From Actinomycetota bacterium (GTDB lineage: Bacteria; Actinomycetota; Nitriliruptoria; Nitriliruptorales; Nitriliruptoraceae), in the NCBI GenBank assembly GCA_018335555.1, contig JAGXST010000099.1, positions 1-32,333 of the forward strand: DNA of 32,333 nucleotides, written 5' to 3'. Of this stretch, positions 11,716 to 31,286 are shown one piece after another; the stretch's first letter is position 1; each line of letters starts with the position of its first letter. Position numbers and translations under genes: made by a program. The notes beneath the pieces were generated by a model that saw only the letters and a program-made list of their open reading frames with translations, had not been told where the DNA came from and searched no databases.

Positions 11716-12887
11716 GCGGCGCGACGAGTGCCCCTGACAGGAGCGCAGCCACCACGGCGTGGCTCGACGCACTGTGCGATTGGACCGGCGCGAGCCGATG
11801 GGCACTCGCTCAGCAACGGCAAGAGCGCTGGCACGTGAGGTCGAGAGCCAACTCGCTGCGTGACGGGGCCCTGGCCCAGGTCGCCGAGGAGATCCTCGGC
11901 GCGGCCGCGCCTGCACCGCGGCTGTTCGCGGTCGACGATCTCGGCGACTCCGGCGCTCGGTTGCAGGCCGCCGGAGTCTCGCGCCTGCTGGCGCTGCCCG
12001 CCGGCGGTGGGGCCTGGCTGTTCCTCGAGTCGCCCGACCTCGAGAGCGCGCTCGACCTCGTCCAGGTCAGCACCGAGTGGCCTCGTCTCGACATCGCCGC
12101 GCTGCTCGCGGCCGAGGACGTCGCCGCGGACATGCAGGACCTGATCGCGTGGTGGTTGGCCGACGAGCGTGCGACGGTCCGCATGCGCACCAGCCGGGGT
12201 TCGTTGCTCGCCAACCAGTTGCACATGGCGATCGAGGCCCTGCAGACCACCGGTGACGAGTCACGCCGCAACGCGCTGCTGCGCGAACGCGCCCGCATCG
12301 CCTCGGTGATCCACGAGGGGATCACGCAGGTGCTCACCAACGTCGCCATCCAGCTCGAGGTGCTGGGACACCACGCCGACGAGCCTGCGGCGGTACGCAA
12401 CATGGTCGGTGCCAGCCGCTCCGCCGTCCTGCAGGCCCTCGAGTCGTTGCGAACGGCCATCCTCGACCTGACGCCGCCGTCCGAGGAGTGGACCGACCTC
12501 GTCGTCGGTCTCCAAGGCTTCGTGGTCGACTTCGCCGCCCAGTGGGGCATCGAGTGCCGCCTCGAGATCCTCGGTACGCCGCGCGAGATCGCGAGCGAGG
12601 TGGTGTCGCTGGCATTCGGGTTCGTGCAGGAAGGTCTCACCAACGTGCGCAAGCATGCCAGGATCGAACACGCGGATGTCCAACTGTCGTTCGGACCCGG
12701 CGTCGTCTCGATCGAGGTCCGCGACGCCGGGGGCGGCCTGTCGGAGGCTGACGTGGACCACACGGACCTGCGTCGACACCAGGGACTGGCCATCCTGGCC
12801 TCCCGCATCCGACTGCTCAACGGGCGCTTCCACGTCGAGTCACCGGCCGAGGGCGGCGTCTGCGTCCGCATGGTCGTGCCCGCATGA
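11712..12887 (+). CDS. Sensor histidine kinase, NarX/DesK (HisKA_3) type
   Basis: ERARIASVIHEGITQVLTNVAIQLEVL dimerisation/H-box; FGFVQEGLTNVRKHA N-box; VEVRDAGGGL and QGLAILASRIRLLNG G-boxes; GTG start overlaps GNAT stop. Confidence 0.83.
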   Translation: MSGATSAPDRSAATTAWLDALCDWTGASRWALAQQRQERWHVRSRANSLRDGALAQVAEEILGAAAPAPRLFAVDDLGDSGARLQAAGVSRLLALPAGGGAWLFLESPDLESALDLVQVSTEWPRLDIAALLAAEDVAADMQDLIAWWLADERATVRMRTSRGSLLANQLHMAIEALQTTGDESRRNALLRERARIASVIHEGITQVLTNVAIQLEVLGHHADEPAAVRNMVGASRSAVLQALESLRTAILDLTPPSEEWTDLVVGLQGFVVDFAAQWGIECRLEILGTPREIASEVVSLAFGFVQEGLTNVRKHARIEHADVQLSFGPGVVSIEVRDAGGGLSEADVDHTDLRRHQGLAILASRIRLLNGRFHVESPAEGGVCVRMVVPA

Positions 12888-13525
12888 GCGCGATCCGGGT
12901 GATGCTCGTCGACGACCACGAGATGGTCCGTCAGGGCCTGCGACTGCTGCTCGAGAGCGTCCTGCACTACGAGGTCGTGGAGGCGTCATCGGGACCGCAC
13001 GCCCTGGCCCTGCTCACCGAGACGACCGTCGACGCGGTGTTGCTCGACGCCCGCATGCCGGAGCACGACGGCATCTGGACCCTGCAGCGCATCCGGGCCG
13101 AACGACCGGAACTCCCCGTGCTGATGCTCTCGACCTACGACACCGCCGACTACGTCGAGGGTGCCCTCGACAACGGCGCCGCCGGCTATCTGTTGAAGGA
13201 TGCCAGCAGCCAGCAGGTCGGGGAGGCCGTGGCGACCGCGCTGGAGGGACGCGGGGTCTACCTGCACCCCCAGGTCGCCCAGCGGCTCCTCGGCCGCCGC
13301 GGGGGCTCGCCCGGCCACACGATTCCGCTCTCCACGCGCGAGCAGGAGATCCTCGAACTGCTCGTCGGTGGGCGGTCGACCGAGGACATCGGCCTGGCGC
13401 TCCACCTGGCCACGGCGACGGTGAAGAGCCACCTGACCTCGATCTTCCGCAAGCTGCGCGTCACCAACCGCACGCAGGCCGTCGCGAAGGCGCTGCAGGA
13501 CGGACTGGTGCGAGGGGGCCGCTGA
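12884..13525 (+). CDS. Two-component response regulator, NarL/LuxR family
   Basis: IRVMLVDDHEMVRQGLRLLLE, AVLLDARMPEHDG phosphoacceptor, LLKDA; LSTREQEILELLVGGRSTEDIGLALHLATATVKSHLTSIFRKL HTH; ATGA overlap with kinase. Confidence 0.93.
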   Translation: MSAIRVMLVDDHEMVRQGLRLLLESVLHYEVVEASSGPHALALLTETTVDAVLLDARMPEHDGIWTLQRIRAERPELPVLMLSTYDTADYVEGALDNGAAGYLLKDASSQQVGEAVATALEGRGVYLHPQVAQRLLGRRGGSPGHTIPLSTREQEILELLVGGRSTEDIGLALHLATATVKSHLTSIFRKLRVTNRTQAVAKALQDGLVRGGR

Positions 13526-13628: not shown

Positions 13629-14021
13629 GTGAAGTTCGGGGCCCCTGTCAACCTCCGCATCGCCGTGGCCGATTCGGTGACGGCTGCGAGAACATCGCTG
13701 CGGCAGGTCGTCGAGGGTCCGTTGGGGTGGCAGGTCGTCGGTGAAGCGGCCGACGGGTTCGAGGCCGTACGGGTTGCCCGCGCAACCGCGGCCGACGTTC
13801 TGCTCGTGGAGTGCACCATCGGAGGACTACCGCTGAGCGACATCCGGGCCCTGCTGGCGTCGAGCCACACCGTGGTGGTCGGCCTGCTCGACCGTCCCGA
13901 GCAGCACGCGGCGCAGACCGGACCATCGACGCTCAAGACGGTCCCAGCCGACGCCCTGCGCACCCGGATCCTCGCCGCGGTGGAGGAGCGGTGGCACCTC
14001 GGCGGGGTGGTCGGGACATGA
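13629..14021 (+). CDS. Degenerate (pseudo-) receiver domain protein
   Basis: LRIAVADSVTAARTSLRQVVE, VVGEAADGFEAVRVARATAADVLLVECTIGGLPL, STLKTVPADALRTRI fit the CheY-like fold pattern, but the phosphoacceptor Asp position is Glu. Confidence 0.7.
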   Translation: MKFGAPVNLRIAVADSVTAARTSLRQVVEGPLGWQVVGEAADGFEAVRVARATAADVLLVECTIGGLPLSDIRALLASSHTVVVGLLDRPEQHAAQTGPSTLKTVPADALRTRILAAVEERWHLGGVVGT

Positions 14022-16882
14022 GCGAGGTCGCCTCGGTCGGGCCGGCCGACGAGCCGACCACGCGGCCCCGCCGCGTCGAACTCGCCAAGCAGGGCCGCGG
14101 TCGCCGTCGTGCGCGTCCCTCGCCGGCCGAGCCCACGGCCGTGAGCGCGGGCAACGTGGGATTCGTGGCCGGCCTGCTCGGGTTCCTCGAGGACCCGGTT
14201 GCGCCCGCACGCCAGGACACGCGGCCCGAACCGAACGACGCGACGGCCCCGTCGGCGCCCGCGGTTGCGATCGAGTCCCCGTCCTCCGAACCACCGGCCG
14301 TCCCCCCTCCGCCGGCGCGCCCGGACGGGACCGACGGCATCGACGCACCGGCGGCGGTCGTTGAACCGGTGTGGGACTGGGCTGCACGGGGCGAGGACGT
14401 GGATCCGCGTCCGGACGACCCGCCGGGCAGGCAGCCGACCGCGCCCGACCACGACCTCGTCCTCGAGTTGACCTCGTTCGATCCACAACGCCGCCGCGAC
14501 GCGCTGCGGCGCATGCTCGGCGAGAGGCTGACCGGCGCCACCGCCACGGCTGCCGCGGTGGCGCTGCGCGACCCCGAGCCGGACATCCGGCATCTCGCGC
14601 TGCAACTGTTCGAGCACGCCCCTCAACTCCTACCGCTCGACTCCCTCGAAGCACTCGCCTTCGACACCGACGCGGCCGTGCGCCTGCGAGCCGCGGCGCT
14701 CGCGGGGCGGATCGACGATCCCGACGTCGTCCTACACCTGGCCGACCGACTGCTCACCGAGCGTGACGACGCCGTGCTCGAAACGGTGCTGGCCTCGGTC
14801 ATCGGCGTCAGCCGATCCGTCGGCCTCGGCGAGACACACGTCGACGGCCTGTGCCGCGCGATCGGCCAGGTCGCCGTGAGCCACCTCGGTGCACTGCGGT
14901 CCGGTCTGCAGACCCTGGCGGCCAGCCTCGACGCCGGAGACCTGCTCCATCGACTGGGCAGCCACGACCCCGACCTGCGCGCCGGCGCTGCCGTACTCGC
15001 CTTCGAGTCCGGAACCGACACGGCCCTGGCTGCCGTCGCCCGGCTGTCGACCGACGGCCACCCCACGGCACGCCGCTATGCGAACGCGGCCGTCGCGGCC
15101 AGCCGCGCGCCCGCCGACGTTGCACCGACCACTGCGCCGGCCGGTAGCAGCACCGACCTACCCCAGGCCCGGGGCGAGACCAGACGCTCGGAACGCGCGG
15201 CCCCCGGCGAGGCCGAGCTGACCATGCTCCCCGGGCTCGTCGCGGCACTCGGCGATCCCGACCCCGCGATCCGCGACCAGGCGGGCGCCTCCCTGGCTGG
15301 CATCGACCGCGACAAGCTGCTCGCGTGGATGTGGACCCAGTCACGGCACGCGGACGCGGCCGAGCTGGAACGACTCATCGACGCAGCCGGTCGCCTCGAG
15401 GCGGCCGAGATCGGCGAGCCGCTCGCCCGCGCCGTCCTGCGCGTCCGCAGTGCCGGCGACTCCGTGACGTTGGAACTCGCTGCCCGCTCCTTCGAGCCGT
15501 TGGCCACGGTGGCCAGTCGCTGGCAGGGATCGGACAACCCGGCCGACCGTGTGCGGGCGGTCGAGCTGTGGACGGTGCTGGCCTCGGCCGGTCCGGCGCC
15601 GCTGCTCGATCTCCTGGACGACTCGAACGCCAACGTCCGACTCGCTGCGGTCGCCGCCGTCGTCGAGACCGGATCCGACGCCCCGACCGTCGAGCGCCTG
15701 CTCGACCTGATCGAGCGCGACAGTTCGTTGCGCGTCCGGCAGGCGGCGCTGGCGGCACTGCACGCGTCGAGCCCCGCCGAACGCGTGACCGCCGTTCGGA
15801 TCGCCCTCTCCACCCCGCATCCCGACTTGCGCCGCGCAAGCCTGGACCTGCTCGGGGGCGAGACGGACGACGAGTTCCACCTGCTCACGGCGGCACTCGC
15901 CGATCCCGACGGCGGCGTGGCGCAGCGGGCCGCTGCGGTGCTGATGGAGCGGCCTCGCCCCGAGACGTTGGCGGTGCTGTGGAGTCAGCTGCGCACCGCT
16001 TCGGGAGCGAGCCGGGTGCTCCTGCTCGACGTCCTGCGCAACCTCGACGCGGCGGCGTTGCGGCGGCTGGGCACGCAGGCAGCCTCCCATCCGGATCCCG
16101 GCGAACGCATCGTCGGCGTCACGGCCCTTGCCGCGCTCGGCGACGAGCGGGAAGTGTCCCGCCTCGTGGACGCGCTGGGCGACCCGACGCCGGCCGTCCG
16201 CCTCGCCGCGCTCGAGGCGCTGGGCTCTCACGCCGGCGTGACCGCGCTGGCGCCCGTGCTCGCCGCCCTGCGCGACCCGGAACCCAGCGTGCGTGCGTCC
16301 GCCGTGCGCGTGCTGGCCGACTTCGAGGACGACGCGGCGATCCCGCACGTCGTCGGGGCGCTGGACGACCCCGCACCGCTCGTTCGCGACGCGGTGGTCG
16401 AGGTGCTCGGCAGACACGGCTCCCCCCAGGTCGCCGCGCTGCTGCTCGGCCACCTCGACCGACCCGCACACCAGACCACCGTCGCGCAACTGCTCGCCAG
16501 GATGGGGCCGGCGGCCACCGAGGCGCTCCTGGCCCGGATACCCGATGCCGACCGTACCCAGCGCATCGTCCTGCTCCAGGCACTGCGTGCCGCCGGGATC
16601 ACCGACCGCCTCACCGGCGAGCTGCAGGCACCCGCCCCGGACGTGCGCCTGCGGGCGCTCGAGCTGCTGGCACTGCTGCATCACACCGAGGCCGCCGACT
16701 CGATCGCGGACCGGCTGACCGATCCCGACGCCCGGGTCCGGGCACTGGCCGCCACGATTCTGGGCGACTTCGGGGACGACCGGGCCATCGACTGTCTGCG
16801 GGCCGCGTTCGGCAGCGATCCGGACATGGAGGTGGTCGCGGCCGTCGAACGCGCTTTCCGGCAGTTGGTGACCGATGAATGA
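14018..16882 (+). CDS. Large HEAT-repeat (armadillo-like) protein with Pro/Arg-rich N-terminus
   Basis: Many helical repeats such as LVDALGDPTPAVRLAALEALGSHAGVTALAPVLAALRDPEPSVRASAVRVLADF, IADRLTDPDARVRALAATILGDFGDDRAIDCL; ATGA overlap with preceding gene. Confidence 0.85.
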   Translation: MSEVASVGPADEPTTRPRRVELAKQGRGRRRARPSPAEPTAVSAGNVGFVAGLLGFLEDPVAPARQDTRPEPNDATAPSAPAVAIESPSSEPPAVPPPPARPDGTDGIDAPAAVVEPVWDWAARGEDVDPRPDDPPGRQPTAPDHDLVLELTSFDPQRRRDALRRMLGERLTGATATAAAVALRDPEPDIRHLALQLFEHAPQLLPLDSLEALAFDTDAAVRLRAAALAGRIDDPDVVLHLADRLLTERDDAVLETVLASVIGVSRSVGLGETHVDGLCRAIGQVAVSHLGALRSGLQTLAASLDAGDLLHRLGSHDPDLRAGAAVLAFESGTDTALAAVARLSTDGHPTARRYANAAVAASRAPADVAPTTAPAGSSTDLPQARGETRRSERAAPGEAELTMLPGLVAALGDPDPAIRDQAGASLAGIDRDKLLAWMWTQSRHADAAELERLIDAAGRLEAAEIGEPLARAVLRVRSAGDSVTLELAARSFEPLATVASRWQGSDNPADRVRAVELWTVLASAGPAPLLDLLDDSNANVRLAAVAAVVETGSDAPTVERLLDLIERDSSLRVRQAALAALHASSPAERVTAVRIALSTPHPDLRRASLDLLGGETDDEFHLLTAALADPDGGVAQRAAAVLMERPRPETLAVLWSQLRTASGASRVLLLDVLRNLDAAALRRLGTQAASHPDPGERIVGVTALAALGDEREVSRLVDALGDPTPAVRLAALEALGSHAGVTALAPVLAALRDPEPSVRASAVRVLADFEDDAAIPHVVGALDDPAPLVRDAVVEVLGRHGSPQVAALLLGHLDRPAHQTTVAQLLARMGPAATEALLARIPDADRTQRIVLLQALRAAGITDRLTGELQAPAPDVRLRALELLALLHHTEAADSIADRLTDPDARVRALAATILGDFGDDRAIDCLRAAFGSDPDMEVVAAVERAFRQLVTDE

Positions 16883-18830
16883 GCGCGAGCTGCGTTCGGC
16901 CGCGGCAACACCGCGACGCACGCGGGTCCTGCTGACGACCGAGGGCACCTATCCCCACACGATCGGCGGCGTCTCGACGTGGTGCCAGAACCTGGTCGAG
17001 TCGCTCGGCGAGATCGACTTCACGGTCTTCGCGCACATGACCAGCCCGTTCGTCCCCGAGGCCTACGAGCGACCCGCCAACGTCGAGCTCGTCGGGGTCC
17101 CGATCTGGGGCGTCGAGGAGCCGGCCGAGTTCAACCCCAAGCTGTCCCCCCGCCGGGTCATCGTGCTCTCCGCGATGATGGACGAACCCACCGCACGCCG
17201 CTGGTTCTGCCCCCTGCTGCGCGAGATGCTCGAGATGCTGCACTACCCGCAGCGCTTCGACGCCGAGCGCTTCGGGGCCATCGTCGAGTCGATGTACGAC
17301 TACTTCCGCGACCACGACTACCGCGGGACGTTCCGCACCCGGGCCGTTTGGGAGACCTGCCGCGACACCTGGCTGGAGGCCTGCGGCGTGGATCCCGACG
17401 ACGACGACCCCGACGCCGATTTCGACCCGGAGGCGAACCCGAACCCGCACGAGATCGTCCGCCGCCTCGGGCAGCTCCGTCGGCCCCAGCCCGCCGACGA
17501 CGAAGAACTGAAGCGGACACATCGGCTACCGCGGTTGTTCGAGGCGACCGAGGCGATGCGACTCGTCTACCGCCTGCTGACCCCGCTCAACTACGACCTG
17601 CCGGAGGCCGACCTCGTCCATGCGACGGCCGCGTCCTTCTGTGGGCTGGCCGGCATCGTCAAGCGGCGTCGGGACGGCACGCCCCTGCTCGTGACCGAGC
17701 ACGGCGTGTTCATGCGCGAGCAGATGCTCTACCTCGGTCGCGTCCGCTTCCCGTTCCACCTGCGCAAGTTCTTCATCCAGTTCGTTTCCGCCGTCTCTCG
17801 CGCCGTGTATCACCACGCCGACCAGGTCAGTCCGGTCTGCGCCTACAACGCCCGCTGGGAGGTGAAGAACGGGGCCCACCCGGACCGGATCCGCGTCATC
17901 TACAACGGCGTCGAGGAGGATCGGTTCCGCCCGATGGTGGTCGAACGGCCGGCCGCGCCGACGGTGGTCATGGTCTCGCGCGTCGATGCCCTCAAGGATC
18001 TGGAGACGGCACTGCGTGTCGCGGCCCGGGTGCGCGAACGGGTGCCAGAGGTCCGGTTCCTGCACTACGGGCCCGAACCCGACGCCGCCTACGCGACCCG
18101 GTGCCGAGAGCTGTGGCGGGAACTAGGACTCGAGACGACCTTCGAGTGGCGTGGCATGACGAACGACGCCGCGGCCGCGTACAACCAGGGCGACGTCGTG
18201 CTGCTCACGTCGATCTCCGAGGCGTTCCCGTACACGGTGATCGAGGGCATGATGTGCGGCCGCCCGGTCGTCTCGACCAACGTCGGTGGGGTGCCCGAAG
18301 CGATCGGCGAACTCGGAGCCACCGCGAGGATCCGCGATGTCGACGGCCTCGCGCGAGGGGTCGAGTGGCTGCTCCGCCTCGACGCCGGGGACCGCGAACA
18401 ACTGCAGCGCTCCTGTCGCGAGCGCACCGTGCGCCTGTTCACCCAGGCGGCGTCGATCGCGGAGTACCGCATCGCGTACGACGAGTTGATCCGGCAGGCG
18501 CGGATACCGGGGACCACGCCGCTCGTGGCGTCGGCGTCGGCGGCGACGCCGACGGCCGTCCCGCCACCCTTGCCCCTCCCGACCTCGACGGTCGCGACAC
18601 GGACGCTCGTGCGTGTGCCGGCGACCGCCGACGAGGTCCGCCTCGGCCTCGGCGCGCCACTCCCCGAAGCTCGCCTCGCGGCGGTCGCAGCGGCCGGCGA
18701 TCACCTCGAGCAGGTCGAGGCCATCCGGCGGCTGACCCAACTGCTGCGCACCGACCCCGACACCCGCGTCCGCCTCGAGGTGGGCGTGGCGCTGCGGACC
18801 CTGATCGGACTGCAGCAGGAAGCCGGCTGA
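16875..18830 (+). CDS. PelF-like GT4 glycosyltransferase (DUF3492-type N-terminus) with HEAT-like C-terminal tail
   Basis: RVLLTTEGTYPHTIGGVSTWCQNLVESL N-terminus; VSPVCAYNARWEV..IRVIYNGVEEDRF; TSISEAFPYTVIEGMMCGRPVVSTNVGGVPEAIG (E-x7-E); C-terminal PLPEARLAAVAAAGDHLEQVEAIRRLTQLLRTDPDTRVRLEVGVALRTL. Confidence 0.82.
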   Translation: MNERELRSAAATPRRTRVLLTTEGTYPHTIGGVSTWCQNLVESLGEIDFTVFAHMTSPFVPEAYERPANVELVGVPIWGVEEPAEFNPKLSPRRVIVLSAMMDEPTARRWFCPLLREMLEMLHYPQRFDAERFGAIVESMYDYFRDHDYRGTFRTRAVWETCRDTWLEACGVDPDDDDPDADFDPEANPNPHEIVRRLGQLRRPQPADDEELKRTHRLPRLFEATEAMRLVYRLLTPLNYDLPEADLVHATAASFCGLAGIVKRRRDGTPLLVTEHGVFMREQMLYLGRVRFPFHLRKFFIQFVSAVSRAVYHHADQVSPVCAYNARWEVKNGAHPDRIRVIYNGVEEDRFRPMVVERPAAPTVVMVSRVDALKDLETALRVAARVRERVPEVRFLHYGPEPDAAYATRCRELWRELGLETTFEWRGMTNDAAAAYNQGDVVLLTSISEAFPYTVIEGMMCGRPVVSTNVGGVPEAIGELGATARIRDVDGLARGVEWLLRLDAGDREQLQRSCRERTVRLFTQAASIAEYRIAYDELIRQARIPGTTPLVASASAATPTAVPPPLPLPTSTVATRTLVRVPATADEVRLGLGAPLPEARLAAVAAAGDHLEQVEAIRRLTQLLRTDPDTRVRLEVGVALRTLIGLQQEAG

Positions 18831-20434
18831 TGGGCACGACGCTGCCGACCGTCGACGACCTCGCGCACTCGATCTCCAGTGACCTCGGCTGGATACAGGG
18901 CCCGTTCGAGGTGGCGGCCCTGCTCGAATCGCAGGGGATCACCGACACCGACGCGCGGGAGCACTACGGGCAGCCGGACGTCTTCGGGCTGGCGGACGAG
19001 GTGCTCGCCCGCCAGCGCAACGAGATCGACCTCCACCGGTTGGCGTCCGAGGAGGAGGACCGGCGACTGGTCGACGAACTCGATCGTTACCCGACCGAGA
19101 CGATGGGGCTGGTGCGCACCATCATCCGTGGCGCCGCCTACGGCATGCCGATGGGGCTGTCCGTCTTCGCCTCGCTGATCCTGCTGTACTCGCTGTGGTC
19201 GTACTACTACTTCACGCCGGCCCAGGCGACCGCCATCGGGTTGGGCACCGCCCTGTCCTACTTCATCGCCGGCGGCTTCACGCAGGCGATCGGTCGACGC
19301 GGACTGATGTACCTGCGCCAGGGCATGTACCTGATGACGCTCAAGGTGAGCTGGTTCTTCGTCCTCACCGGCATGGTGGTGACCGCCGTCGTCGCGTTCG
19401 TGCTGTGGCTCGTGTTCAACCTGTTCACCGTCATCTCGCAGTTCGAGGCCAACCTGGCGGTGCTGTACTTCCTCAGCCTCTCGGTGCTGTGGCTGTGCCT
19501 GGCCGTGCTCTACATGCTCGAACAGGAGCTGATGTTCACGGTCGCCGTGGCGATCGGCATCGCCGTGGTCTACGCCCTGCGCGAGTACGTCGGCCTGCCG
19601 ATGGTCGTCAGCCACCAGATCGGCCTCGCCGCCAGTTCCCTGTTCTCGATGCTGATGTCGGCCGTGCACCTGCTGCGACTGCACCGCCGTCACCGTGACC
19701 CGGCGGTGCCGACCTACACCAGGCTGCCCCGCATCGTGATCCTGCTCTCGTCGGTGCGCACCTTCGTCCTGTACGGGTCGCTCTACTTCACGCTGCTGTT
19801 CGCCGATCGGCTCCTGGCATGGACCGGCCGGATGGACTTCCGCCAGACCTTCATCTGGTTCCGGGCCGACTACGAGGCCGGCCTCAACTGGGCCCTGATC
19901 GGTATGTTGCCTGCCTTCACGGTGCTCGAGATCGTGCTCCAGCGTTTCGGTGGCCAGATGAAGCCGAAACAACTCGCGCACTCGCTCGCCGACCGCCGCG
20001 GGTTCTCGTCGTGGTACCTGCGCTTCTACGTGCGTCAGGTCGGTCTCTACCTCGTCGTGGCGGTCGCGGGTGTCGTCGCGGCCTGGTACGGGATGCTGGC
20101 GCTCGTGCCTCGCATACCGGAGCTGGCGATCCTCGGCGGCCACGTGACCCGGTTCACGTTCTTCGTCGGCTCGTTCGGCTACCTCGCCATCGGCTTCTCG
20201 CTGCTGAACCTGTCGGTGTTCTTCTGGCTGTCGCGGCCGCGTCTGGCCATGCTCTCGTTGCTGCCGGCCATGCTCGGCAACCTCGTCATCGGCTACCTGC
20301 TGAGTCGGATCTTCTCCTACCACCTGGCCGTGTTCGGGCTTGCCGCGGGGGGACTGGTGTTCGCCCTCATCTCGACGGTGCTGTGCATGCGGGTGATGTC
20401 GAACCTGGACTACTACTACTACTCGGCGTTCTGA
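18830..20434 (+). CDS. PelG-like polysaccharide export membrane protein (MOP-like), with N-terminal soluble extension
   Basis: About 100-aa hydrophilic N-terminus then about 12 hydrophobic segments; immediately downstream of PelF-like GT; C-terminal FFVGSFGYLAIGFSLLNLSVFFWLSRPRLAMLSLLPAMLGNLVIGYLLSR...NLDYYYYSAF fits the PelG pattern. Confidence 0.6.
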   Translation: MGTTLPTVDDLAHSISSDLGWIQGPFEVAALLESQGITDTDAREHYGQPDVFGLADEVLARQRNEIDLHRLASEEEDRRLVDELDRYPTETMGLVRTIIRGAAYGMPMGLSVFASLILLYSLWSYYYFTPAQATAIGLGTALSYFIAGGFTQAIGRRGLMYLRQGMYLMTLKVSWFFVLTGMVVTAVVAFVLWLVFNLFTVISQFEANLAVLYFLSLSVLWLCLAVLYMLEQELMFTVAVAIGIAVVYALREYVGLPMVVSHQIGLAASSLFSMLMSAVHLLRLHRRHRDPAVPTYTRLPRIVILLSSVRTFVLYGSLYFTLLFADRLLAWTGRMDFRQTFIWFRADYEAGLNWALIGMLPAFTVLEIVLQRFGGQMKPKQLAHSLADRRGFSSWYLRFYVRQVGLYLVVAVAGVVAAWYGMLALVPRIPELAILGGHVTRFTFFVGSFGYLAIGFSLLNLSVFFWLSRPRLAMLSLLPAMLGNLVIGYLLSRIFSYHLAVFGLAAGGLVFALISTVLCMRVMSNLDYYYYSAF

Positions 20435-20435
20435 C

Positions 20436-22655
20436 GTGGGCCTGCAAGAATTGCTGCAGACACCCCTGGTCACCCTGCTCCGCGTGCTCACCGGGCTCGT
20501 CCTCGCCGTGGGCGTCCTCCCGGCATTCGTACTACCGCGCCCGACGTCGGCACGCAGCGGACTCGATGCCGCCGCCGTGAGACTGGTCCGCTGGACTGCG
20601 GTCGTACTCGTCGTCAGCCAACTCCTGGCGATCATCCGGCTGTTCCACGTGCTGCCGATCGTGCTGCTGTGCGCCTACGGCCACTGGTACCGGCGGCGCC
20701 ACGAAGGCAGATTGCGGACGCGCGGCCCGGGCGAGGGGCTCCTCCAGAGACCATGGCTCGCGTTCGCCGACCTGCTGCACCGATTCGAACAGCACGGCAT
20801 GGCAGTCGTCACGACGGCGTGGGACGGCATCTTGGTGGCCGCGAGACGACACCGCGAACGGCTGGTCGCGCGACGTGTCCTGCCACTGGCGCTCCTGCTG
20901 GCCCCGATCGCCGCGATCCTTGCGACCTCGCTGGGGATGCGCGTGGTCCAGGCCTTCCGCTTCCAGACGCTGTCACCGCCCGACGCGTACGTGATCCTGA
21001 CCTGGGCCAAGTCGTTCGCCGCCAACCAGCCCTTCCCCGACGGCCTGTACCCGCCCGGCCTGCCGGCCCTGGTCGCGTTCGTCGGGAAGACGACACCGGG
21101 CGTCGACCTGTACGAGATCGTGCGCTACACGGGGCCGCTCATCGGCATGCTGCTGGTCTTCGGGCTGTTCTACGCCTGCCTGCGACTGACCGGCAACATC
21201 GGCGCTGCGCTGGTCGCAGCGGGCACGTTCGGCCTGTTCGGCACCTCCTACTACTGGCACTCGCCCTGGGCGCGCCAGACCGGTCCGCTGCCGCAGGAAT
21301 TGGGCCTGGCGATCGCGTTGATCGCCCTGCCCTCGGCCGTGCTGGCCGTGACCGAACGCGACCGTGACCACCTGCTCACCACCGCGCTGGCGGCGCTCGC
21401 CATCGGGTTGATCCATCCGGCATCGTGCCTGGTCTTCGTCGTGCTCGCGATCGCCGGCGCGATCGGGGCCACCCTCGTCGCGCGGTGCTCGCCAGGGCCG
21501 GCCCTGGCCGTGGTCGTTGCTGCCGCGGCCGGCGCCGTCGTCGCCCACCTGTACCTGCCGATCGGCCTGCTGCTCGGCCTGCCGCTGTTCCGAGGACTCG
21601 ACAGCCCGTTCATCGGGGTCGAGATCGAGCAGGGACGCGACGCGTTCCTGGAGGGGCTGCTCGGCACCTCGGCACTGGGCCACAACCCGTTGAGCCTGCT
21701 CGCGCTGGCCGGTGCCGGCCTGGCGCTGGTCGTTGCGTTCGCGCTGTTCGCACGTTCCCGGATCTCCCCCGGGGTCCACCCGTCTGGCGCCCAAGCGTTC
21801 GCGGCGTTGGGTGGGCTCGCGGGTATCGCCCTCGCCGCCGTCGCCGCCTACGACGTCCGCTGGATCCCGCTGCCGACGAACGTGACCGGCTCGATCGGAG
21901 GCCTGGTCGGCATCGCCCTCGCGCTCGGCCTCGGGGCCGGCTTCGCCGCCCTCACCCCACTCTGGCTCGCCCGCCGCGGTGCGATGGTCCGCGCCACGGC
22001 GTTGGTCACGGCCGCGGCGCTGTCGATCGGGGGCTTCGGTCTGGCCTTCGAGTCCGGCCCACGGGGCCGTGAGCCGAGCGAGTACGAGTCCACGGCAGCG
22101 GTCACCCGTGACATCATGAAGAACCAGGACGCCTACAGCTACACGGTCGTCGGCACACCACAACAGCGGCAGGCGATCCAGGGGGTCGGCGCCTTCATCG
22201 AACTGTGGGTGTTCGCCCGCGACGTGACGGTCCGGGATGCCCGGGACCCGGGCTTCGTCGTCCCCGACCTGTCGTCGCTCATGTTCGCCCGCGACCTCGG
22301 CGAGAGTCTCCCGATCCCGACCGCAGACATCTACGTGTTCGTCGAGAAGCAGCCGTTCCCGGTCACGGCCCGGACGGCCACGGGACCGACCGAGGAGTAC
22401 TACTTCGACCCGGCCAAGCGTGGCCGCATCATGGCGACCGTCTACGCGTGGGCGGAGTACTACCGCCACTACCACACCGACATGGACATCCACCACGAGG
22501 ACGAGCACATCGTCGTCTACCGGATCCGCCGCCGCCCGAACACGGTGGCCGCCGCCGCTTCCCCGCAGTTCAAGGACTACACGTGGGAACCCGGTGTGCT
22601 GTTCAACGGTGGCCCTGCGTCGCCGGCCGAGGTGGAGATTCCATGGCGCATGTGA
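20436..22655 (+). CDS. Polytopic membrane protein, GT-C glycosyltransferase-like (paralogue 1)
   Basis: Multiple TM segments; LSPPDAYVILTWAKSFAANQPFPDGLYPPGLPALVAFV loop; SPWARQTGPLPQELGLAIAL; C-terminal ectodomain with YVFVEKQPFPV and EEYYFDPAKRGRIMATVYAWAEYY; paralogous to 23605-25764. Confidence 0.6.
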   Translation: MGLQELLQTPLVTLLRVLTGLVLAVGVLPAFVLPRPTSARSGLDAAAVRLVRWTAVVLVVSQLLAIIRLFHVLPIVLLCAYGHWYRRRHEGRLRTRGPGEGLLQRPWLAFADLLHRFEQHGMAVVTTAWDGILVAARRHRERLVARRVLPLALLLAPIAAILATSLGMRVVQAFRFQTLSPPDAYVILTWAKSFAANQPFPDGLYPPGLPALVAFVGKTTPGVDLYEIVRYTGPLIGMLLVFGLFYACLRLTGNIGAALVAAGTFGLFGTSYYWHSPWARQTGPLPQELGLAIALIALPSAVLAVTERDRDHLLTTALAALAIGLIHPASCLVFVVLAIAGAIGATLVARCSPGPALAVVVAAAAGAVVAHLYLPIGLLLGLPLFRGLDSPFIGVEIEQGRDAFLEGLLGTSALGHNPLSLLALAGAGLALVVAFALFARSRISPGVHPSGAQAFAALGGLAGIALAAVAAYDVRWIPLPTNVTGSIGGLVGIALALGLGAGFAALTPLWLARRGAMVRATALVTAAALSIGGFGLAFESGPRGREPSEYESTAAVTRDIMKNQDAYSYTVVGTPQQRQAIQGVGAFIELWVFARDVTVRDARDPGFVVPDLSSLMFARDLGESLPIPTADIYVFVEKQPFPVTARTATGPTEEYYFDPAKRGRIMATVYAWAEYYRHYHTDMDIHHEDEHIVVYRIRRRPNTVAAAASPQFKDYTWEPGVLFNGGPASPAEVEIPWRM

Positions 22656-23605
22656 TCCCCGGCTGGCGGCGCGGGCGGCGCCGCATCAGCGCCATCAGCC
22701 TGTTGCTGGTCCTCAGCGTCCTTCTCGGTGGGTGTCGGCCCTCCGGGGAGCGGCGCCTGGTCAGCCTGCGTGAGGGCGAGTTCAGCGGTGGCGAGGTCGC
22801 CGGGCAGCTGCTCTACGTCGAGACACGCGGCGTGCGGCAGTCGGCGCTGTTCGTCCACGACCTCGACCGGGACGAGCGGCAGCGGCTGACGCTACCGCCG
22901 GGCTACGCGAACTCGCCCGCGTGGTCCCCCGATGGCCGTCACGTCGCCTTCTCCCTGACCGGGGCCGACGGCTTCTCGCACCTGTGGGTGGTCCCCGTCG
23001 CGGGCGGCCGTGCCCGGCAGATCACCGACGGCGAGGTGGTCGACGACCATCCGCGATGGTCACCCGACGGCGAGAAGCTGGTGTTCACCTCGATCCGGGA
23101 CGGCGACTACGACTGGCGGCTGTTCACGGTCGCCGTCGACGACCCGGAGCCACCACGGCCGGTCGGCAGCACCGACGGTCACAGCGTCTTCCCGGACTGG
23201 TCACCGGACGGACGCCACCTGGTCTACGCCAATCGCGGGGAGGGCAACTACCGGCTCCGGTTGCACGACCTCGAAAGCGGCCGCGACCGCCGGATCACGG
23301 ACGGCCCGGGCGAGGACCTCTACCCGCGGTTCTCCCCCGACGGCCGAGAGGTGCTGTTCTCCTCCACGCGCGTCGACGACGTCTGGCAGATCCAGCGCCT
23401 CGACCTCGCGACCGACGAGGTGGAGCATGTCGTCGGCAGCGACTCCATGGACGAATTCCCGGTCTACTCACCCGACATGCAACACGTCGCCTTCTCGGCC
23501 GGACACCTCGCGCTGTACCGCGCCGACGGCGAGGCATTCCCCGACGGCAAACTGCGCTGGTCCATCACGCGCAACCTGGCCTGGACACCGGACTGGAGGG
23601 GATAG
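22643..23605 (+). CDS. TolB-like (WD40-like/PD40) beta-propeller lipoprotein
   Basis: ISLLLVLSVLLGGC lipobox; repeated blades SPAWSPDGRHVAFS, HPRWSPDGEKLVFTS, FPDWSPDGRHLVYA, YPRFSPDGREVLFSS, FPVYSPDMQHVAFS. Confidence 0.85.
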   Translation: MAHVIPGWRRGRRRISAISLLLVLSVLLGGCRPSGERRLVSLREGEFSGGEVAGQLLYVETRGVRQSALFVHDLDRDERQRLTLPPGYANSPAWSPDGRHVAFSLTGADGFSHLWVVPVAGGRARQITDGEVVDDHPRWSPDGEKLVFTSIRDGDYDWRLFTVAVDDPEPPRPVGSTDGHSVFPDWSPDGRHLVYANRGEGNYRLRLHDLESGRDRRITDGPGEDLYPRFSPDGREVLFSSTRVDDVWQIQRLDLATDEVEHVVGSDSMDEFPVYSPDMQHVAFSAGHLALYRADGEAFPDGKLRWSITRNLAWTPDWRG

Positions 23606-25764
23606 TGGAGCTCGAACAGGCAGCCACGTTCCTCCGGGTGCTCCTGGCCACGGGGATCGTGCTCGGGGTGCTGCCCCGGCTCGTGCTGCCACGGCCCGGG
23701 AACGCGCGGTCGGGCCTCGACGCCGCCGTTGCGAACCTGCTGCGCTGGCTGGCGATCGTGATGGTCGTCAGCCACGTGCTCGCCGGGATCGGGCTCTACA
23801 ACCGGGTCTCGCTGCTGGGCAGCTTCCTCGTCATCGCCTGGTTCTCGACCTACCGGCCCCGCTACGGCGGCCTCGGTGGCCTCCTGCACCGGCTGTGGCC
23901 GACGGATGGCGGTCGCGCCGCTGCCCGCGAGCCCACACGACCTCGGCTCGGATGGCGCGACCGTGCCGCACTCGTCGGCCTCACCGCCCCGCTCGTCGTC
24001 CTGCTGGCCGCCTCGTATTGGTTGCGCGCCAAGGACACGTTCGCGACCGTGGCGTTGAGCCCGCCCGATGCCTATGTCCACATGACCTGGGCATGGTCGT
24101 TCCAGCAGAACGTGCTCTGGCCTGACGGGGTCTACCCGCAGGGCATGTCGGCGATCGTCTCCCTGATCCACCTGTTCGCGCCGTTCACCGAGATTCTCGA
24201 CGTCGCGCGGTTCACCGGGCCGATGGTCGGCACGTTCCTGGTCTTCTCCATCTACTACGTCGTACTGCGCCTGTCCCGAAACCCCGGGGCGGCCCTGTTC
24301 GCAGCCGGCCTGCTCGGCCTGTTCGGCGCCAACCCCGAATGGCGGGAGCCGTGGGAACGACAGGTTGCGCTGCTGCCCCAGGAGTTCGGCCTCGCGATGG
24401 CCCTGCTCGCCGTGGTGTTCGCCGTGCTCGCCGTCTCCGAGGAGCCGCACGGACCACGGCTGCGGCTCGGGCGCCTGCCCGCGGTGCCGCTGGGAGGCCA
24501 CGCGACGACGCTCGGGGTCGCGGTGTTCGCCGTCGCGCTGTGCCATCCACTGCCCGGCCTGTGGGCCGGTCTGGTCGTCGCGGTCGGTGCCATCGGCGCC
24601 GTGGTGCTCTCGCACCGGTTCGCCGCCCTCGTCGGGGCGGGACTGACGACGTTGGCCGGAGCGGCGGTCGGGTTCGCGGTCGTCCCGCTCGCCCAGTGGT
24701 TCGGGGTTCCCGCCTACCTCGGCTACGGCGCCGGCGAGGCGCTTGCGGACCTCACGGGGATGAGCCTCCAGGAGCGCCAGGCCAAGCTGGTCGAGTACTT
24801 CGGCGAACTCGACCGGCTCGGGCACAATTGGCTCAGCCTCGCCGCCGCAGCCGCGCTCGTCCTCGCCGTCGTCGGCGTCGTGCTGCTGGCGCGGGGCGGA
24901 CAGCGCGGACACGCAGCCGAACTGCTCGGGTTGACCGCGGTCGGCGGCTTCGCCGTCGCAGCGTTCGACCTGCGCCCTCTGGCCGGCGCGCTCGACCCCT
25001 TCTACCTCGTTCGCGTGGGAAACCTGCTCGGCCCGACACTGCCCCTGGCGTTCGGTGCCGGGCTCGGCGGCCTGTCGCTGCTGGTGGCCAGGCGCGTGAC
25101 GTACGTGCGCGTGGCCGTCCTGGTGCTCATCGGCCTGGTCTCCCTGGGCGGCATCGCCACCCGGTTCCCGGCCGACGCGATCGAGCGCTGGTACGAACGC
25201 GAAGAGGTCGAGTACGAGGAGATGACGCACGTCACACTGCGGCTGAAGCGCGAGGTGGAACCGCTGACCTACACCACGGTCGGCTTGGCCTCGCAACGCC
25301 AGGTCATGGGCGAGGCGTCGTGGTTCATCGCTGCCTGGGTCTTCGCCCGCGACCTCCCGGACGTGCCGCACAACGACATCCTGCCGGTCCCGACGCCCGA
25401 GACCTACGTGTTCGTCGAACTCGACCCGTACCGCGTGAAGGAGGTCGATCCCAACGGCGCCGTCGAGGAGTACTACTTCGACCGCGAGAAGCGGGGGCGC
25501 ATCCAGGCCCGCCTCTACGAGTGGGCCGAACAGCGACGACGGATCAATCCCGACACGACGATTTGGTACGACGGGGAGCACGTCCGCGTCTACCGCATCG
25601 CGCGCAACCCGGCCATCCAGACCGACCCCGGCAGCCCGGAGTTCAAGGACTACGCCTGGGTTCCCGGCAAGTTGTTCAACAGCGGCCCCACCTCCCCGCG
25701 CGACCTCGAGGCACGGTTTGCCGCCCTTCCCGAGCCCGTGTTCGACGAACTGGGCGCGCCGTGA
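23605..25764 (+). CDS. Polytopic membrane protein, GT-C glycosyltransferase-like (paralogue 2)
   Basis: LSPPDAYVHMTWAWSFQQNVLWPDGVYPQGMSAIVSLI; EPWERQVALLPQEFGLAMAL; ETYVFVELDPYRV; EEYYFDREKRGRIQARLYEWAEQ; same architecture as 20436-22655. Confidence 0.6.
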   Translation: MELEQAATFLRVLLATGIVLGVLPRLVLPRPGNARSGLDAAVANLLRWLAIVMVVSHVLAGIGLYNRVSLLGSFLVIAWFSTYRPRYGGLGGLLHRLWPTDGGRAAAREPTRPRLGWRDRAALVGLTAPLVVLLAASYWLRAKDTFATVALSPPDAYVHMTWAWSFQQNVLWPDGVYPQGMSAIVSLIHLFAPFTEILDVARFTGPMVGTFLVFSIYYVVLRLSRNPGAALFAAGLLGLFGANPEWREPWERQVALLPQEFGLAMALLAVVFAVLAVSEEPHGPRLRLGRLPAVPLGGHATTLGVAVFAVALCHPLPGLWAGLVVAVGAIGAVVLSHRFAALVGAGLTTLAGAAVGFAVVPLAQWFGVPAYLGYGAGEALADLTGMSLQERQAKLVEYFGELDRLGHNWLSLAAAAALVLAVVGVVLLARGGQRGHAAELLGLTAVGGFAVAAFDLRPLAGALDPFYLVRVGNLLGPTLPLAFGAGLGGLSLLVARRVTYVRVAVLVLIGLVSLGGIATRFPADAIERWYEREEVEYEEMTHVTLRLKREVEPLTYTTVGLASQRQVMGEASWFIAAWVFARDLPDVPHNDILPVPTPETYVFVELDPYRVKEVDPNGAVEEYYFDREKRGRIQARLYEWAEQRRRINPDTTIWYDGEHVRVYRIARNPAIQTDPGSPEFKDYAWVPGKLFNSGPTSPRDLEARFAALPEPVFDELGAP

Positions 25765-27170
25765 GCGGCAGCACGGCCGCCCGGCGGCTCGCCTTGAACA
25801 CGGGCACGCTCGTCGGCGGCGGCCTGCTCGGTCAGGGCGCCAAGGGGCTGATCGCGATCGCCGTGGGGCGCGAACTCGGCCCCGCTCAGCTCGGCGTGTT
25901 CACGTTCGTGTGGACCATTGCCGCGCTGGTCGCGCAGTACGCCCCGCTGGGCATCGGTCACCTGCTCGTGCGCGAGCTCAGCCGCGAGCACGCGAGGGTC
26001 GCCTCGGGTGACGCGCTGCGCGTCGCCGCCTCCATGAGCCTGCTGGCCGCCGTCGGTCTCGTCGCCGGCGCCAGGCTGTTCGGTGCCGGGGACGAGATCG
26101 TGCGTGCGCTGGCCGTCGCGACCCCCTACGTGCTGCTCAGCCCGATCGTGATCGTGCACACGGCGCGGTTCCATGCGCGTGAACGGATGGAACTCGACGC
26201 CGTCGTCCAGATCACCGAGGGAGCGATCGCACTGCTCGGTGCACTCGTCGCGCTGCGGGCCGGCCACGGACTCCTCGGCGTACTAGCGGCGCTCGGCGTG
26301 GGGCGGGCGACCGGCGCCGGGGTGTCGTGGTGGCTCGACCGACGCCTGCCGGCTCCACCGGCCGCCCCACCGGTCGCGCGGTCGTCATGGCGTGAGGTCG
26401 TGCGCCTGAGCCTGCCCATGGGCGGGGCGAGCCTGTTCACCGCGCTCGTCTCGCGCGTGGACCTGGTGATCCTCGGCCTGCTCGTGGCCGCAGCCGACGT
26501 CGGCATCTACGGCGCGGCAGCCGTCGTGGTGGCGCTGCTCGCCGACACCACCAACGAACTCAACCGGGCCGCCTACCCGCGCCTGTCGCGCCTGGCCGGC
26601 CCCCATCTCGGCGCCGGGTTCGCGCGACTCTGGCGGGTGCAGTTGGCATTCACCACGGCCGCGGCCGCTGGACTGAGCGTGCTCGCCGGGCCCATCGTCG
26701 AGATGCTGTTCGGCGACGGGTTCGGCGAGGCCGCCCGCGTGCTGGCGGTGCTGGCCTGGATCCTGCCGCTGCGCGCCCTCAGCCACCTGTGCGGCATCGG
26801 CCTGTACGCGGTCGACCGCGCCGGCGCACGCACCCGGGCGACCGGCGTCGCCGCGGGGCTCAACGTCGCCGCGAACCTCGCCCTCGTGCCGATGTTCGGA
26901 CTCTGGGGCGCCGTGATCGCGGCGCTCCTGACCGATGCCGTGCTGTTGGCGCTCTCGGCCCACTATGGCCGGGATCTCCGGCCGGCCGCGTGGACCGGGT
27001 TGGCGACCTCGCTGGTGGTCGGATCGATCGTGGCGGCGGTCGCCGCCCTCGCGCCCGGACACGTCCTGGTCCGCATCGCGGCCGGCACCGTCGCGTTCGC
27101 CGGCGCCGCCGCGGCGACGCGGACCGGCCGCGACACCGCACGCCGCCTGCGCACGGAGGTGTCCTCGTGA
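25761..27170 (+). CDS. Wzx-like lipopolysaccharide/polysaccharide flippase (MOP superfamily)
   Basis: RRLALNTGTLVGGGLLGQGAKGLIAIAVGRELGPAQLGVFTFVWTIAAL, LSLPMGGASLFTALVSRVDLVILGLLVAAADVGIYGAAAVVV; about 12 hydrophobic segments. Confidence 0.85.
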   Translation: MSGSTAARRLALNTGTLVGGGLLGQGAKGLIAIAVGRELGPAQLGVFTFVWTIAALVAQYAPLGIGHLLVRELSREHARVASGDALRVAASMSLLAAVGLVAGARLFGAGDEIVRALAVATPYVLLSPIVIVHTARFHARERMELDAVVQITEGAIALLGALVALRAGHGLLGVLAALGVGRATGAGVSWWLDRRLPAPPAAPPVARSSWREVVRLSLPMGGASLFTALVSRVDLVILGLLVAAADVGIYGAAAVVVALLADTTNELNRAAYPRLSRLAGPHLGAGFARLWRVQLAFTTAAAAGLSVLAGPIVEMLFGDGFGEAARVLAVLAWILPLRALSHLCGIGLYAVDRAGARTRATGVAAGLNVAANLALVPMFGLWGAVIAALLTDAVLLALSAHYGRDLRPAAWTGLATSLVVGSIVAAVAALAPGHVLVRIAAGTVAFAGAAAATRTGRDTARRLRTEVSS

Positions 27171-28276
27171 CCGGTACGTGTCGTGTCCGGGTGGGGCCGG
27201 TGACCATCGGGCTGACCGGCGTCGACCCGACCCTGCCCGCAGTCGGGGTGTTCGCCGGCCTGCCCCCGGCAGGACCGGACGCGCCCGTCGACCTGCGCAT
27301 CGCCTTCGAGCCGGGACTACGGGTCCCGGGACGCGCGGCTCGCGCCGTGGGGCGGTACCCGCTGTACGCCGCACCCGGGGGCCTCGTGGTCATCGACCAC
27401 GTCGGACGTGAGGCGTACCTGCCGTTGGCCGACCTCGGGACCCGGCCGGTCAGGATCGACCCCGAACTCGACCTCCACGTGCTGCAGACCTGGGTCCAGT
27501 TGCCGCTGCTGCGGATGGCTCTGCACCGGGCCGGCGGCGGCCTGGTCAGGTGCACCGTGGTCGAGGTGGACGGTCACCGTCTCGCCCTCGTCGCGCCCGC
27601 CCGGGCGGGCAAGACGCGGTTGGTGCTGGCGTTGTTGCGCCACGGTGCGGGACTCGTCGGCGACGACTGGGTCGCCGTCGACGCGACCGGTCGGTGTTCC
27701 CCGGCCTGTCGGCTGCTGGTCGTCCGCGACGAGGCCCGCGACGACACCGGCCAGCGGTCGGTTCGCAGCCTGCTCGTCCTGGCCCTGCGTCGCGCGGCGG
27801 CGGTGTTGGTGCGATGGCGGCGGCTGTCACTCGCCATGGCACATGCCGCCGACGTCGTCTGGCGGCTCGGGCAGCAGGTCCGCGACGTCGCCGACGTGGT
27901 TCCCGGGGCGCGCGTCGCCGAGCAACCGGCGGTCCTGGACGAGGTCGTCGTGCTCACATCCCAGGCCACCGAGGCGGCGCCGGTGTCGGCGTCGGACGCG
28001 GCGACCATCGCCGAGATGGTCGCGGCCGCGGTGGTGGTCGAGCACCCGGAGCAGTACGTGCTCGACGGGGTGTTCCGGCTGGTCCACCCTGGCATCCTGC
28101 CGGCGGGGAGCCTCCCGGCCCCGGCCGCCGACCTCGAGCGGGCACTCACGCTGCTGGGACCGGCGCGGGTGGCGTCCATGCCGATCGACGACATCGGTTG
28201 GACCGTGCGACGACTCACGGGTCTGTCGGCCGAGGCACGGTCGACGCGCCGCGACGATCAGGGAGCCCAGGCATGA
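27167..28276 (+). CDS. HprK-related P-loop protein
   Basis: LALVAPARAGKTRLVLALLRHGAGLVGDDWVAVD (Walker A followed by GDDxV); GTG start overlaps flippase stop. Confidence 0.55.
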   Translation: MTGTCRVRVGPVTIGLTGVDPTLPAVGVFAGLPPAGPDAPVDLRIAFEPGLRVPGRAARAVGRYPLYAAPGGLVVIDHVGREAYLPLADLGTRPVRIDPELDLHVLQTWVQLPLLRMALHRAGGGLVRCTVVEVDGHRLALVAPARAGKTRLVLALLRHGAGLVGDDWVAVDATGRCSPACRLLVVRDEARDDTGQRSVRSLLVLALRRAAAVLVRWRRLSLAMAHAADVVWRLGQQVRDVADVVPGARVAEQPAVLDEVVVLTSQATEAAPVSASDAATIAEMVAAAVVVEHPEQYVLDGVFRLVHPGILPAGSLPAPAADLERALTLLGPARVASMPIDDIGWTVRRLTGLSAEARSTRRDDQGAQA

Positions 28277-28932
28277 CACGAAGAACCGGGCTGCGCCTCG
28301 ATCCGTTCCTGTCGAGCTACGTCGCGACGATCCGCGAGGTCCTCGAGCCACTACGTGACCGCGACGTGCTCGACGTCTCGGCGGGAAGCGGCTGGGTCGG
28401 GCAGTTCGACTTCAGGAACTACACCCCCGTCGACATCGTCGACCCCGACGCCTACTGGGACCTCGACACGCCCCTGCCCGATGACCACGTCGCCGGCTAC
28501 GACCTCGTCGTCAACCTCGGGTCCCTGCACTACACGCGGGATCCGGTGCGGTCGTTGGAGCAGATGCTGCGTGCACTGCGCCCAGGGGGCGACCTGGTCA
28601 TCATGGTGCCGTGGATGTTCCCGCCGCACGACCGCCGCGCCGATCGTTGGCGCATCGCTCCCGTGAAACTGTGGGAGATGCTCGACCCCGGCTTCGTGAC
28701 CGTCGACCTGTTCCTGGTCGGGAACGCATTCCAGCTTCCGCTCCACGTCGGCAAGCGCCTGCTCGCCGGACCGTTCGTCGGGGTGACGCAGGCGGAACTG
28801 GCCGCGACCTCCCGGCGTCACGCCGCGCCGCGAGTGTCTGTCACGGACGCCGACGGCGTCCCTGCGCGTTGGACCGGACCGGTGAACGTGGTGGCCCATG
28901 CGACCGGCTTCACCTTCGGCGGTGGCACATGA
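28273..28932 (+). CDS. Class I SAM-dependent methyltransferase
   Basis: DVLDVSAGSGWVGQFDF motif I-like, DLVVNLGSLHYTRDPVRSLEQMLRALRPGGDLVIMVP. Confidence 0.72.
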   Translation: MTRRTGLRLDPFLSSYVATIREVLEPLRDRDVLDVSAGSGWVGQFDFRNYTPVDIVDPDAYWDLDTPLPDDHVAGYDLVVNLGSLHYTRDPVRSLEQMLRALRPGGDLVIMVPWMFPPHDRRADRWRIAPVKLWEMLDPGFVTVDLFLVGNAFQLPLHVGKRLLAGPFVGVTQAELAATSRRHAAPRVSVTDADGVPARWTGPVNVVAHATGFTFGGGT

Positions 28933-29726
28933 CACCCGCGGCGGAGACATCCCCGCCCGGACGCGTCCTCGCCCTGATGCCGGCCTTCAACGAGGAGGAC
29001 ATGGTCGGCGTCGTCGTGCACCGGGTGCTGGGTCAGGTCCCCGACGTCGACGTGCTCGTGGTCGACGACGGCTCCACCGACGCGACCGCGATGGTCGCCC
29101 GCCGGGCCGGCGCCCAGGTCCTCTCGCTGCCCTACAACCTGGGGGTCGGTGGTGCGATCCGCGTCGGCTACCGCTTCGCGGCCCGGCGCGGCTACGACGC
29201 CGTCGTGCAGATCGACGCCGACGGCCAGCACGACCCCGCCGACGTGCCGCGACTGCTCGCCGCCCTCGTCGACGCCGACCTCGTGGTCGGGGCACGGTTC
29301 GCCGGTCGCGGCGACTACCAGGTCGACCCCGTGCGCCGGTTGGCGATGCGCTACTTCGCCCGCAAGGTGTCCCGGATCGCCGGCGTGACGCTGACGGACG
29401 TGACATCGGGGTTCCGTGCGGCCGGGCCCCGGACGATCGCGGCCTTCGCGGCCAACTACCCCCTCGACTACCTCTCCGACACGGTCGAGGCCCTGCTGCT
29501 GGCCGTCCAGGCCGGCCTGCGGGTCGACCAGGTGCCGGTCGCGATGCAGCAGCGGGGTGGTGGCCAGCCGAGCCAGTCGTACGGCCACCTCGTCGCCAGC
29601 GCGGCCCGCGCCGTGTTGCAGTTGCAGATCATGCGCTTCCGTGCGAGCACGTCCCCGCGACCGACGATGGAAGGGACGCCCGACGGCGTACCCGGAGCCA
29701 CGACGAGGGCAGGGAGTCCACCATGA
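28929..29726 (+). CDS. GT2-family glycosyltransferase, DPM1/dolichyl-phosphate-mannose synthase-like
   Basis: VLALMPAFNEEDMVGVVVHRVL, VLVVDDGSTDATA, YNLGVGGAIRVGYRFA, VVQIDADGQHDPADVPRLL. Confidence 0.9.
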   Translation: MTPAAETSPPGRVLALMPAFNEEDMVGVVVHRVLGQVPDVDVLVVDDGSTDATAMVARRAGAQVLSLPYNLGVGGAIRVGYRFAARRGYDAVVQIDADGQHDPADVPRLLAALVDADLVVGARFAGRGDYQVDPVRRLAMRYFARKVSRIAGVTLTDVTSGFRAAGPRTIAAFAANYPLDYLSDTVEALLLAVQAGLRVDQVPVAMQQRGGGQPSQSYGHLVASAARAVLQLQIMRFRASTSPRPTMEGTPDGVPGATTRAGSPP

Positions 29727-30121
29727 TCACCGGTGCACACGTGTTGGCGACCGTCGGCACCCTCGGCACGGCCGGCGTCGCCCTGCACCTCGTCCGACGC
29801 CACAGCCTCAACGTGCGCTACGCCATGCTGTGGATCGCGCTCTCGGTGAGCATGCTCGTCGTGATCGCCTTTCCCGGACTGCTCGACCGGGCAGCCACGT
29901 TGCTGTCGATCGTCGAACCGGCAGACGCGCTGTTCTTCCTCGGCTTCCTGGTGTTGTTCGCGATCGTCCTGCAGTTGTCCTTCGCGATCTCCAAGCTCGA
30001 GATGCACACCCGCACGCTCGCAGAGGAGGTCGCCCTGCTGCGCCTCGAGGTCGAGACCGTCGACCGGGTCGGACACGAGCCGGACCCCGACGCCGAGCGG
30101 CGTCGACCGCAGATCTACTGA
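29723..30121 (+). CDS. DUF2304 family small membrane protein
   Basis: Two to three hydrophobic segments, RRHSLNVRYAMLWIALSVSMLVVIAFPGLLD, LFAIVLQLSFAISKLEMHTRTLAEEVALLR; adjacent to GT2, a common pairing. Confidence 0.8.
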   Translation: MITGAHVLATVGTLGTAGVALHLVRRHSLNVRYAMLWIALSVSMLVVIAFPGLLDRAATLLSIVEPADALFFLGFLVLFAIVLQLSFAISKLEMHTRTLAEEVALLRLEVETVDRVGHEPDPDAERRRPQIY

Positions 30122-31280: not shown

Positions 31281-31286
31281 CGCGAC

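Follow-up and report, generated by a model that had tools for sequence, protein, structure and literature searches.

Pel operons (pelABCDEFG in Pseudomonas aeruginosa and pelDEADAFG in Bacillus cereus) place side by side the genes for PelF and for PelG, an exporter described as a MOP-superfamily protein (PMC13254593). PelB and PelC are not part of Gram-positive Pel (PMC7112168). Agd3-associated bacterial exopolysaccharide operons encode an Agd3 (CE18) deacetylase, frequently together with a GH114 protein (PMC7229062). In the GalN modification of mycobacterial and corynebacterial arabinogalactan, PpgS of Mycobacterium tuberculosis, with its helper Rv3632, supplies the transferase Rv3779, and PpgS and an Rv3632 homolog act in Corynebacterium glutamicum (PMC9671496).

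Here, we analyzed a stretch of DNA of 32,333 nucleotides (the window), which makes up the whole of contig C99 in an actinobacterial genome assembly of 3.3 Mb and 77.5% completeness. The locus that it harbors resembles Pel in that genes for PelF and a PelG-type MOP exporter are neighbors, but differs from Pel in its additional genes, which encode a HEAT protein, a HEAT-like tail on PelF, two GT-C-like proteins, a propeller lipoprotein, a Wzx, an HprK-like protein, a methyltransferase, and a PpgS-like protein. According to a preliminary description, no characterized system is known to have this composition, and none is described in the open-access full-text literature that we searched.

Organization of the locus

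Recomputed stops, frames, and starts bear out the earlier claim of 12 consecutive coupled plus-strand genes from 13629 to 30121, with neighbors that overlap by 1 to 13 nt or lie 1 nt apart (Table 1). Eight of the 11 junctions are 4-nt or 1-nt overlaps (ATGA, GTGA, TGATG, or TAGTG); these are g01/g02 (4 nt, ATGA), g03/g04 (1 nt, TGATG), g06/g07 (1 nt, TAGTG), and each junction from g07/g08 through g11/g12 (4 nt). The g02 and g03 frames overlap by 8 nt, g04 and g05 are separated by 1 nt, and g05 and g06 overlap by 13 nt if g06 starts at ATG 22643 or by 4 nt if it starts at GTG 22652. Third-codon-position GC agrees with the called frame across the whole 12-gene run. The gene families named in the preliminary description are all supported, several of them remotely or below cut-off; what it missed are the methyltransferase g10, the HEAT-like tail of PelF, and the PpgS-like nature of g11.

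Table 1. Genes of the locus and its immediate flanks, with window coordinates.
Feature	Position	Strand	Remarks
Histidine kinase (HisKA_3 + HATPase_c)	11712..12887	+	Kinase in same place in G066
LuxR-type response regulator	12884..13525	+	63% identical regulator in same place in G066
g01, receiver-like protein	13629..14021	+	PF00072 below cut-off
g02, HEAT-repeat protein, 954 aa	14018..16882	+	HEAT match; no predicted membrane span
g03, PelF, DUF3492 + GT4	16875..18830	+	NCBIfam PelF above cut-off
g04, PelG-like MOP/MATE-type membrane protein	18830..20434	+	Remote; N-terminal domain of ~60 aa
g05, GT-C-like membrane protein 1	20436..22655	+	Remote
g06, TolB-like PD40 beta-propeller lipoprotein	22652..23605	+	Lipobox LGGC; start 22643 also possible
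g07, GT-C-like membrane protein 2	23605..25764	+	g05 paralog, 37% identity
g08, Wzx/MOP-type flippase	25761..27170	+	Polysacc_synt
g09, HprK-related P-loop protein	27167..28276	+	Weak in window; E=4.7e-7 in an ortholog
g10, SAM-dependent methyltransferase	28273..28932	+	PF13489
g11, GT2, polyprenyl-phosphate-sugar synthase type	28929..29726	+	Best NCBIfam match PpgS, below cut-off
g12, DUF2304 small membrane protein	29723..30121	+	DUF2304
Polysaccharide deacetylase, outside the run	31287..32129	+	PF01522; best NCBIfam match ArnD deformylase, below cut-off

On the flanks of the locus, a non-hydrolyzing UDP-GlcNAc 2-epimerase-like gene (30115-31374, minus strand) is convergent with the operon, and a GNAT acetyltransferase frame (10942-11715, plus strand) shares its last 4 nt with the start of the histidine kinase gene; with its longest start, the GNAT frame overlaps an opposite-strand tRNA-synthetase gene (PF00579, class I W/Y). 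A tRNA-Asp call at 18379-18458 (plus strand) was set aside as probably spurious because it lies inside the PelF frame, where the protein aligns with its relatives.

Distribution and gene order

A search of 65 further genomes from the class of the window gave no match to the PelG-like protein g04, and the same query returned nothing from plasmids. Across 398 sampled genomes of the phylum, g04 has four close relatives sharing 46-53% identity (genomes G066, G210, G190, and G222) and more distant ones; a named genome collection gives the same four contigs, all from uncultured actinobacteria. The five carriers are spread over three classes, with the four others outside the class of the window, and so scattered an occurrence may reflect transfer or else repeated loss. 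The carriers are not fully independent, since G190 and G210 share a genus and G066 belongs to their family. In the same 398-genome sample, a profile of the GT-C-like family has strong matches only in the five genomes with a close PelG, each of which has two copies; a sixth genome gives a weak match (E 4.7e-4).

The gene set is rearranged between the window and the four other genomes. The order in G066 is histidine kinase, response regulator, receiver, HEAT, PelF, GT-C-like, PelG, GT-C-like, GT2, and propeller, followed by sugar dehydrogenase, Wzx, HprK-like, GT4, and an epimerase-GT2 fusion. In G210 and G190, one module contains PelF, PelG, GT-C-like, propeller, Wzx, and epimerase-GT2 (the HEAT end is seen in G210, and the G190 order was assembled from two contigs), and a second module contains GT-C-like, GT2, propeller, sugar dehydrogenase, Wzx, HprK-like, and GT4. 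G222 harbors PelF, PelG, and GT-C-like on one contig and GT2, propeller, GT-C-like, GT4, and sugar dehydrogenase on a separate one. The downstream part, from HprK to DUF2304, varies between loci. A gene order conserved in no relative would have refuted the preliminary description; order recurs in all four, and the PelF/PelG-like pair sits in a conserved gene set to which HEAT, GT-C-like, propeller, and Wzx genes belong.

PelF and the HEAT proteins

With 165.5 bits to the NCBIfam PelF equivalog (cut-off 100), g03 is the PelF that it had been taken for, and it retains the Arg, Lys, and E-x7-E residues. The same cut-off is passed by the three other full-length orthologs from these loci, and each of them, like g03, ends in a C-terminal linker and a HEAT-like tail. 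This tail was scored with a repeat profile built from two HEAT proteins, for which E-values refer to a nine-sequence set; the weakest score is that of the window's own PelF (E 0.0011), and three further PelF proteins, outside this group of four, have no HEAT repeat above the score threshold. The HEAT-tailed PelF proteins form one group in an 11-row tree (90/96, not starred). The separate HEAT protein, g02, shares 34% identity over 951 positions with that of G066. A large HEAT protein is encoded immediately upstream of PelF in three loci; the gene is not always adjacent, because an unrelated exonuclease takes this place in G222.

The PelG-like protein

No Pfam match was found for the window's g04 in a Pfam profile search; its G066 ortholog matches PelG PF16933 with E=2.5e-4, below cut-off, over profile positions 104-452 of 452. 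A structure model of low confidence (mean pLDDT 63) matches MATE transporters (E 2e-4 to 9e-4); its matches to WzxE and MurJ are weaker (E 2e-3 at best). We retain the earlier PelG-like label in a qualified sense: the below-cut-off ortholog match and the MATE/MOP fold matches of the low-confidence model point to it, but the sequence support is remote, and g04 would be a distant PelG with a weak sequence link to the family.

The N-terminal ≈60 residues of g04 are common to PelG-like proteins encoded beside PelF in other actinobacteria. In G390, an Agd3-type deacetylase (5141-7678), PelF (3604-5175), and a related PelG-like gene (2058-3593) stand in a row on the minus strand of locus L022. The shared N-terminal residues and the related protein beside Agd3 and PelF in G390 place g04 in a wider PelF/PelG-like family. 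The window is like the Agd3-associated operons in combining PelF with a PelG-like protein bearing the same kind of N-terminal domain, but in L022 PelF lacks the HEAT tail and no GT-C-like genes are seen. A GH114 gene adjoins the L022 row on the other strand. PelF also lies beside a PelG-like gene with a g04-like N-terminal domain in several large actinobacterial genomes (L030-L035).

GT-C-like proteins and the polyprenyl-phosphate-sugar genes

A structure model of the GT-C-like protein (mean pLDDT 56) has its best matches, at probability near 1, to PglB, DPY19, and EmbB, although no structural match reaches E 0.001 (these three have E 0.01-0.2); AftA is matched with a probability of 0.69. The only Pfam match is PTPS_related, below cut-off, in one relative, and a profile of the family finds no related match among solved structures. 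DUF6541, considered as a bridge to known GT-C-like families, yielded nothing in three carriers. GT-C glycosyltransferases have a conserved acidic residue in an early loop; a candidate for it here is D183, which is invariant in ten relatives. In a tree of the GT-C-like copies, the two from the window group together (94/94), as do the two from G066 (100/98), which suggests that the pairs arose by separate duplications.

The GT2 protein g11 scores 106.4 bits against NCBIfam PpgS, short of the cut-off of 370, and has the DUF2304 gene g12 as its neighbor. In four relatives, GT2 genes matching PpgS, AglJ, or a dolichyl-phosphate-hexose-transferase have a propeller or GT-C-like gene as their neighbor; adjacency of PpgS/dolichol-P-type GT2, propeller, and GT-C genes thus recurs. 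In G066, the DUF2304 gene lies on a different contig. The DUF2304 family is found in C. glutamicum as well, and Rv3632 itself is presumably a DUF2304 protein. By analogy, the PpgS-like GT2, the small membrane helper, and a putative outside-acting transferase may correspond to the arabinogalactan GalN-modification proteins, with the difference that the window's PpgS-like genes sit with PelF and PelG.

Missing Pel components and deacetylation

A single family search, run without a positive control, gave no match to the c-di-GMP receptor PelD (PF16963) in the window's own genome (77.5% complete) or in G066; the earlier statement that PelD is lacking is tentative to that extent. The companion statement on PelA is not secure: this same incomplete genome yields no Agd3-type (Agd3_CE) deacetylase or GH114, but the PF01522 deacetylase gene of Table 1 sits 1.2 kb downstream of the operon. 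That deacetylase is a possible functional partner, and in both G190 and G210 there are DUF3473 deacetylases ahead of the second module; PelA is therefore lacking as regards the known families, not necessarily as regards function.

Regulatory genes

The histidine kinase and LuxR-type regulator genes overlap by 4 nt and are followed by a 103-nt gap to g01. They are part of the same conserved block as the 12-gene run; the kinase-regulator-receiver order is identical in G066. At the position where receivers carry the phosphorylated Asp, g01 has Glu (VLLVEC); its G066 ortholog (51% identity) keeps Asp (VLLVDA).

In G066, the locus is bordered downstream by an opposite-strand HD-domain gene (L018:2867-4156, plus strand) that encodes an HHE...GYP motif, and a homolog takes the corresponding position and orientation in G210 (L064:10236-11510, minus strand); the equivalent G190 reading frame is recognized by similarity only. 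The G066/G210 gene possibly encodes a c-di-GMP phosphodiesterase, and a link between c-di-GMP and the operon is possible on these sequence grounds. A 459-aa G066 reading frame once taken for an operon gene was rejected as the antisense of the HD-domain gene. In the window, a GGDEF-EAL gene (3204-5294, plus strand) is located 8 kb upstream of the operon.

Proposed mechanism and alternatives

The composition and conservation of the locus are well supported, and we infer from the gene content the order of steps, the scaffold role, the donor route, and the identity of the sugar. Our best reading, to which we assign a probability of roughly 0.5, is a surface-glycan operon in which a Pel-like core operates with a HEAT scaffold in place of PelD and PelE and the product is decorated outside the membrane by a polyprenyl-phosphate-sugar/GT-C route. 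PelF (g03) would polymerize or extend a glycan in the cytoplasm, and g04 would export it, with g02, via the HEAT-like tail of PelF, filling the scaffold role that PelD and PelE have in Pel. The g11/g12 polyprenyl-phosphate-sugar branch, with g08 as a possible flippase, would supply lipid-linked sugars to g05 and g07, which would attach these sugars to the glycan on the outer side of the membrane, close to the propeller lipoprotein g06; the kinase/regulator pair and g01 would control the operon. Against this reading, GT2 genes have other roles too, the PpgS scores fall far below cut-off, and a second MOP-type flippase is unneeded in a simple Pel-type synthase route.

An alternative is a lipid-linked route. 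Here, a short glycan would be assembled on a polyprenyl carrier by PelF together with other transferases and flipped by Wzx (and the PelG-like protein), and the GT-C-like proteins would serve as polymerase or as an oligosaccharyltransferase attaching it to protein or wall. Wzx is present wherever a locus extends far enough to reveal it (the window, G066, G210, and G190, twice in G190), the GT-C-like model has the oligosaccharyltransferase PglB among its best fold matches, and GT4 and sugar-dehydrogenase genes stand alongside in the relatives. A Wzx-type flippase and, in relatives, GT4 and sugar dehydrogenases are features shared with Wzx/Wzy-dependent polysaccharide loci. We nonetheless consider this route somewhat unlikely: the profiled genes of the loci include no match to an initiating phosphoglycosyltransferase or a Wzy polymerase, and PelF, the polymerizing synthase in Pel, is kept as a PelF equivalog. 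The latter fact, the nearby deacetylase, and the record of Gram-positive loci with only PelF and PelG (PMC7112194) would also suit an ordinary Gram-positive-type Pel operon that makes partly deacetylated poly-GalNAc and has diverged accessory genes. This is decidedly improbable given that GT-C-like, propeller, HEAT, and Wzx genes lie outside the core pelDEADAFG locus (PMC7112168), and given the negative searches described above for the PelD GGDEF, in the window's own genome and G066, and for Agd3 and GH114. Hardly credible, finally, is a chance juxtaposition of unrelated glycan genes; the variable HprK-to-DUF2304 part and the absence of the set from the other sampled genomes of the class could be read this way, but the 11 junctions are tight, the order is conserved in other classes, and co-occurrence of the PelG-like and GT-C-like proteins is near-perfect.

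Under the surface-glycan operon with a Pel-like core, we tentatively propose a new organization of PelF/PelG export, in which a HEAT platform docks a HEAT-tailed synthase and a GT-C pair fed with polyprenyl-phosphate sugars decorates the exported polymer. If true, it would join two assembly logics that are not known in combination. The Pel synthesis/export core could then be re-used in the absence of the scaffold and the c-di-GMP receptor known for it, and synthase-made polymers could be coupled to GT-C decoration in actinobacteria. The locus also defines a dedicated GT-C-like family, clearly limited in our sample to genomes with this type of PelG, whose donor and acceptor are testable.
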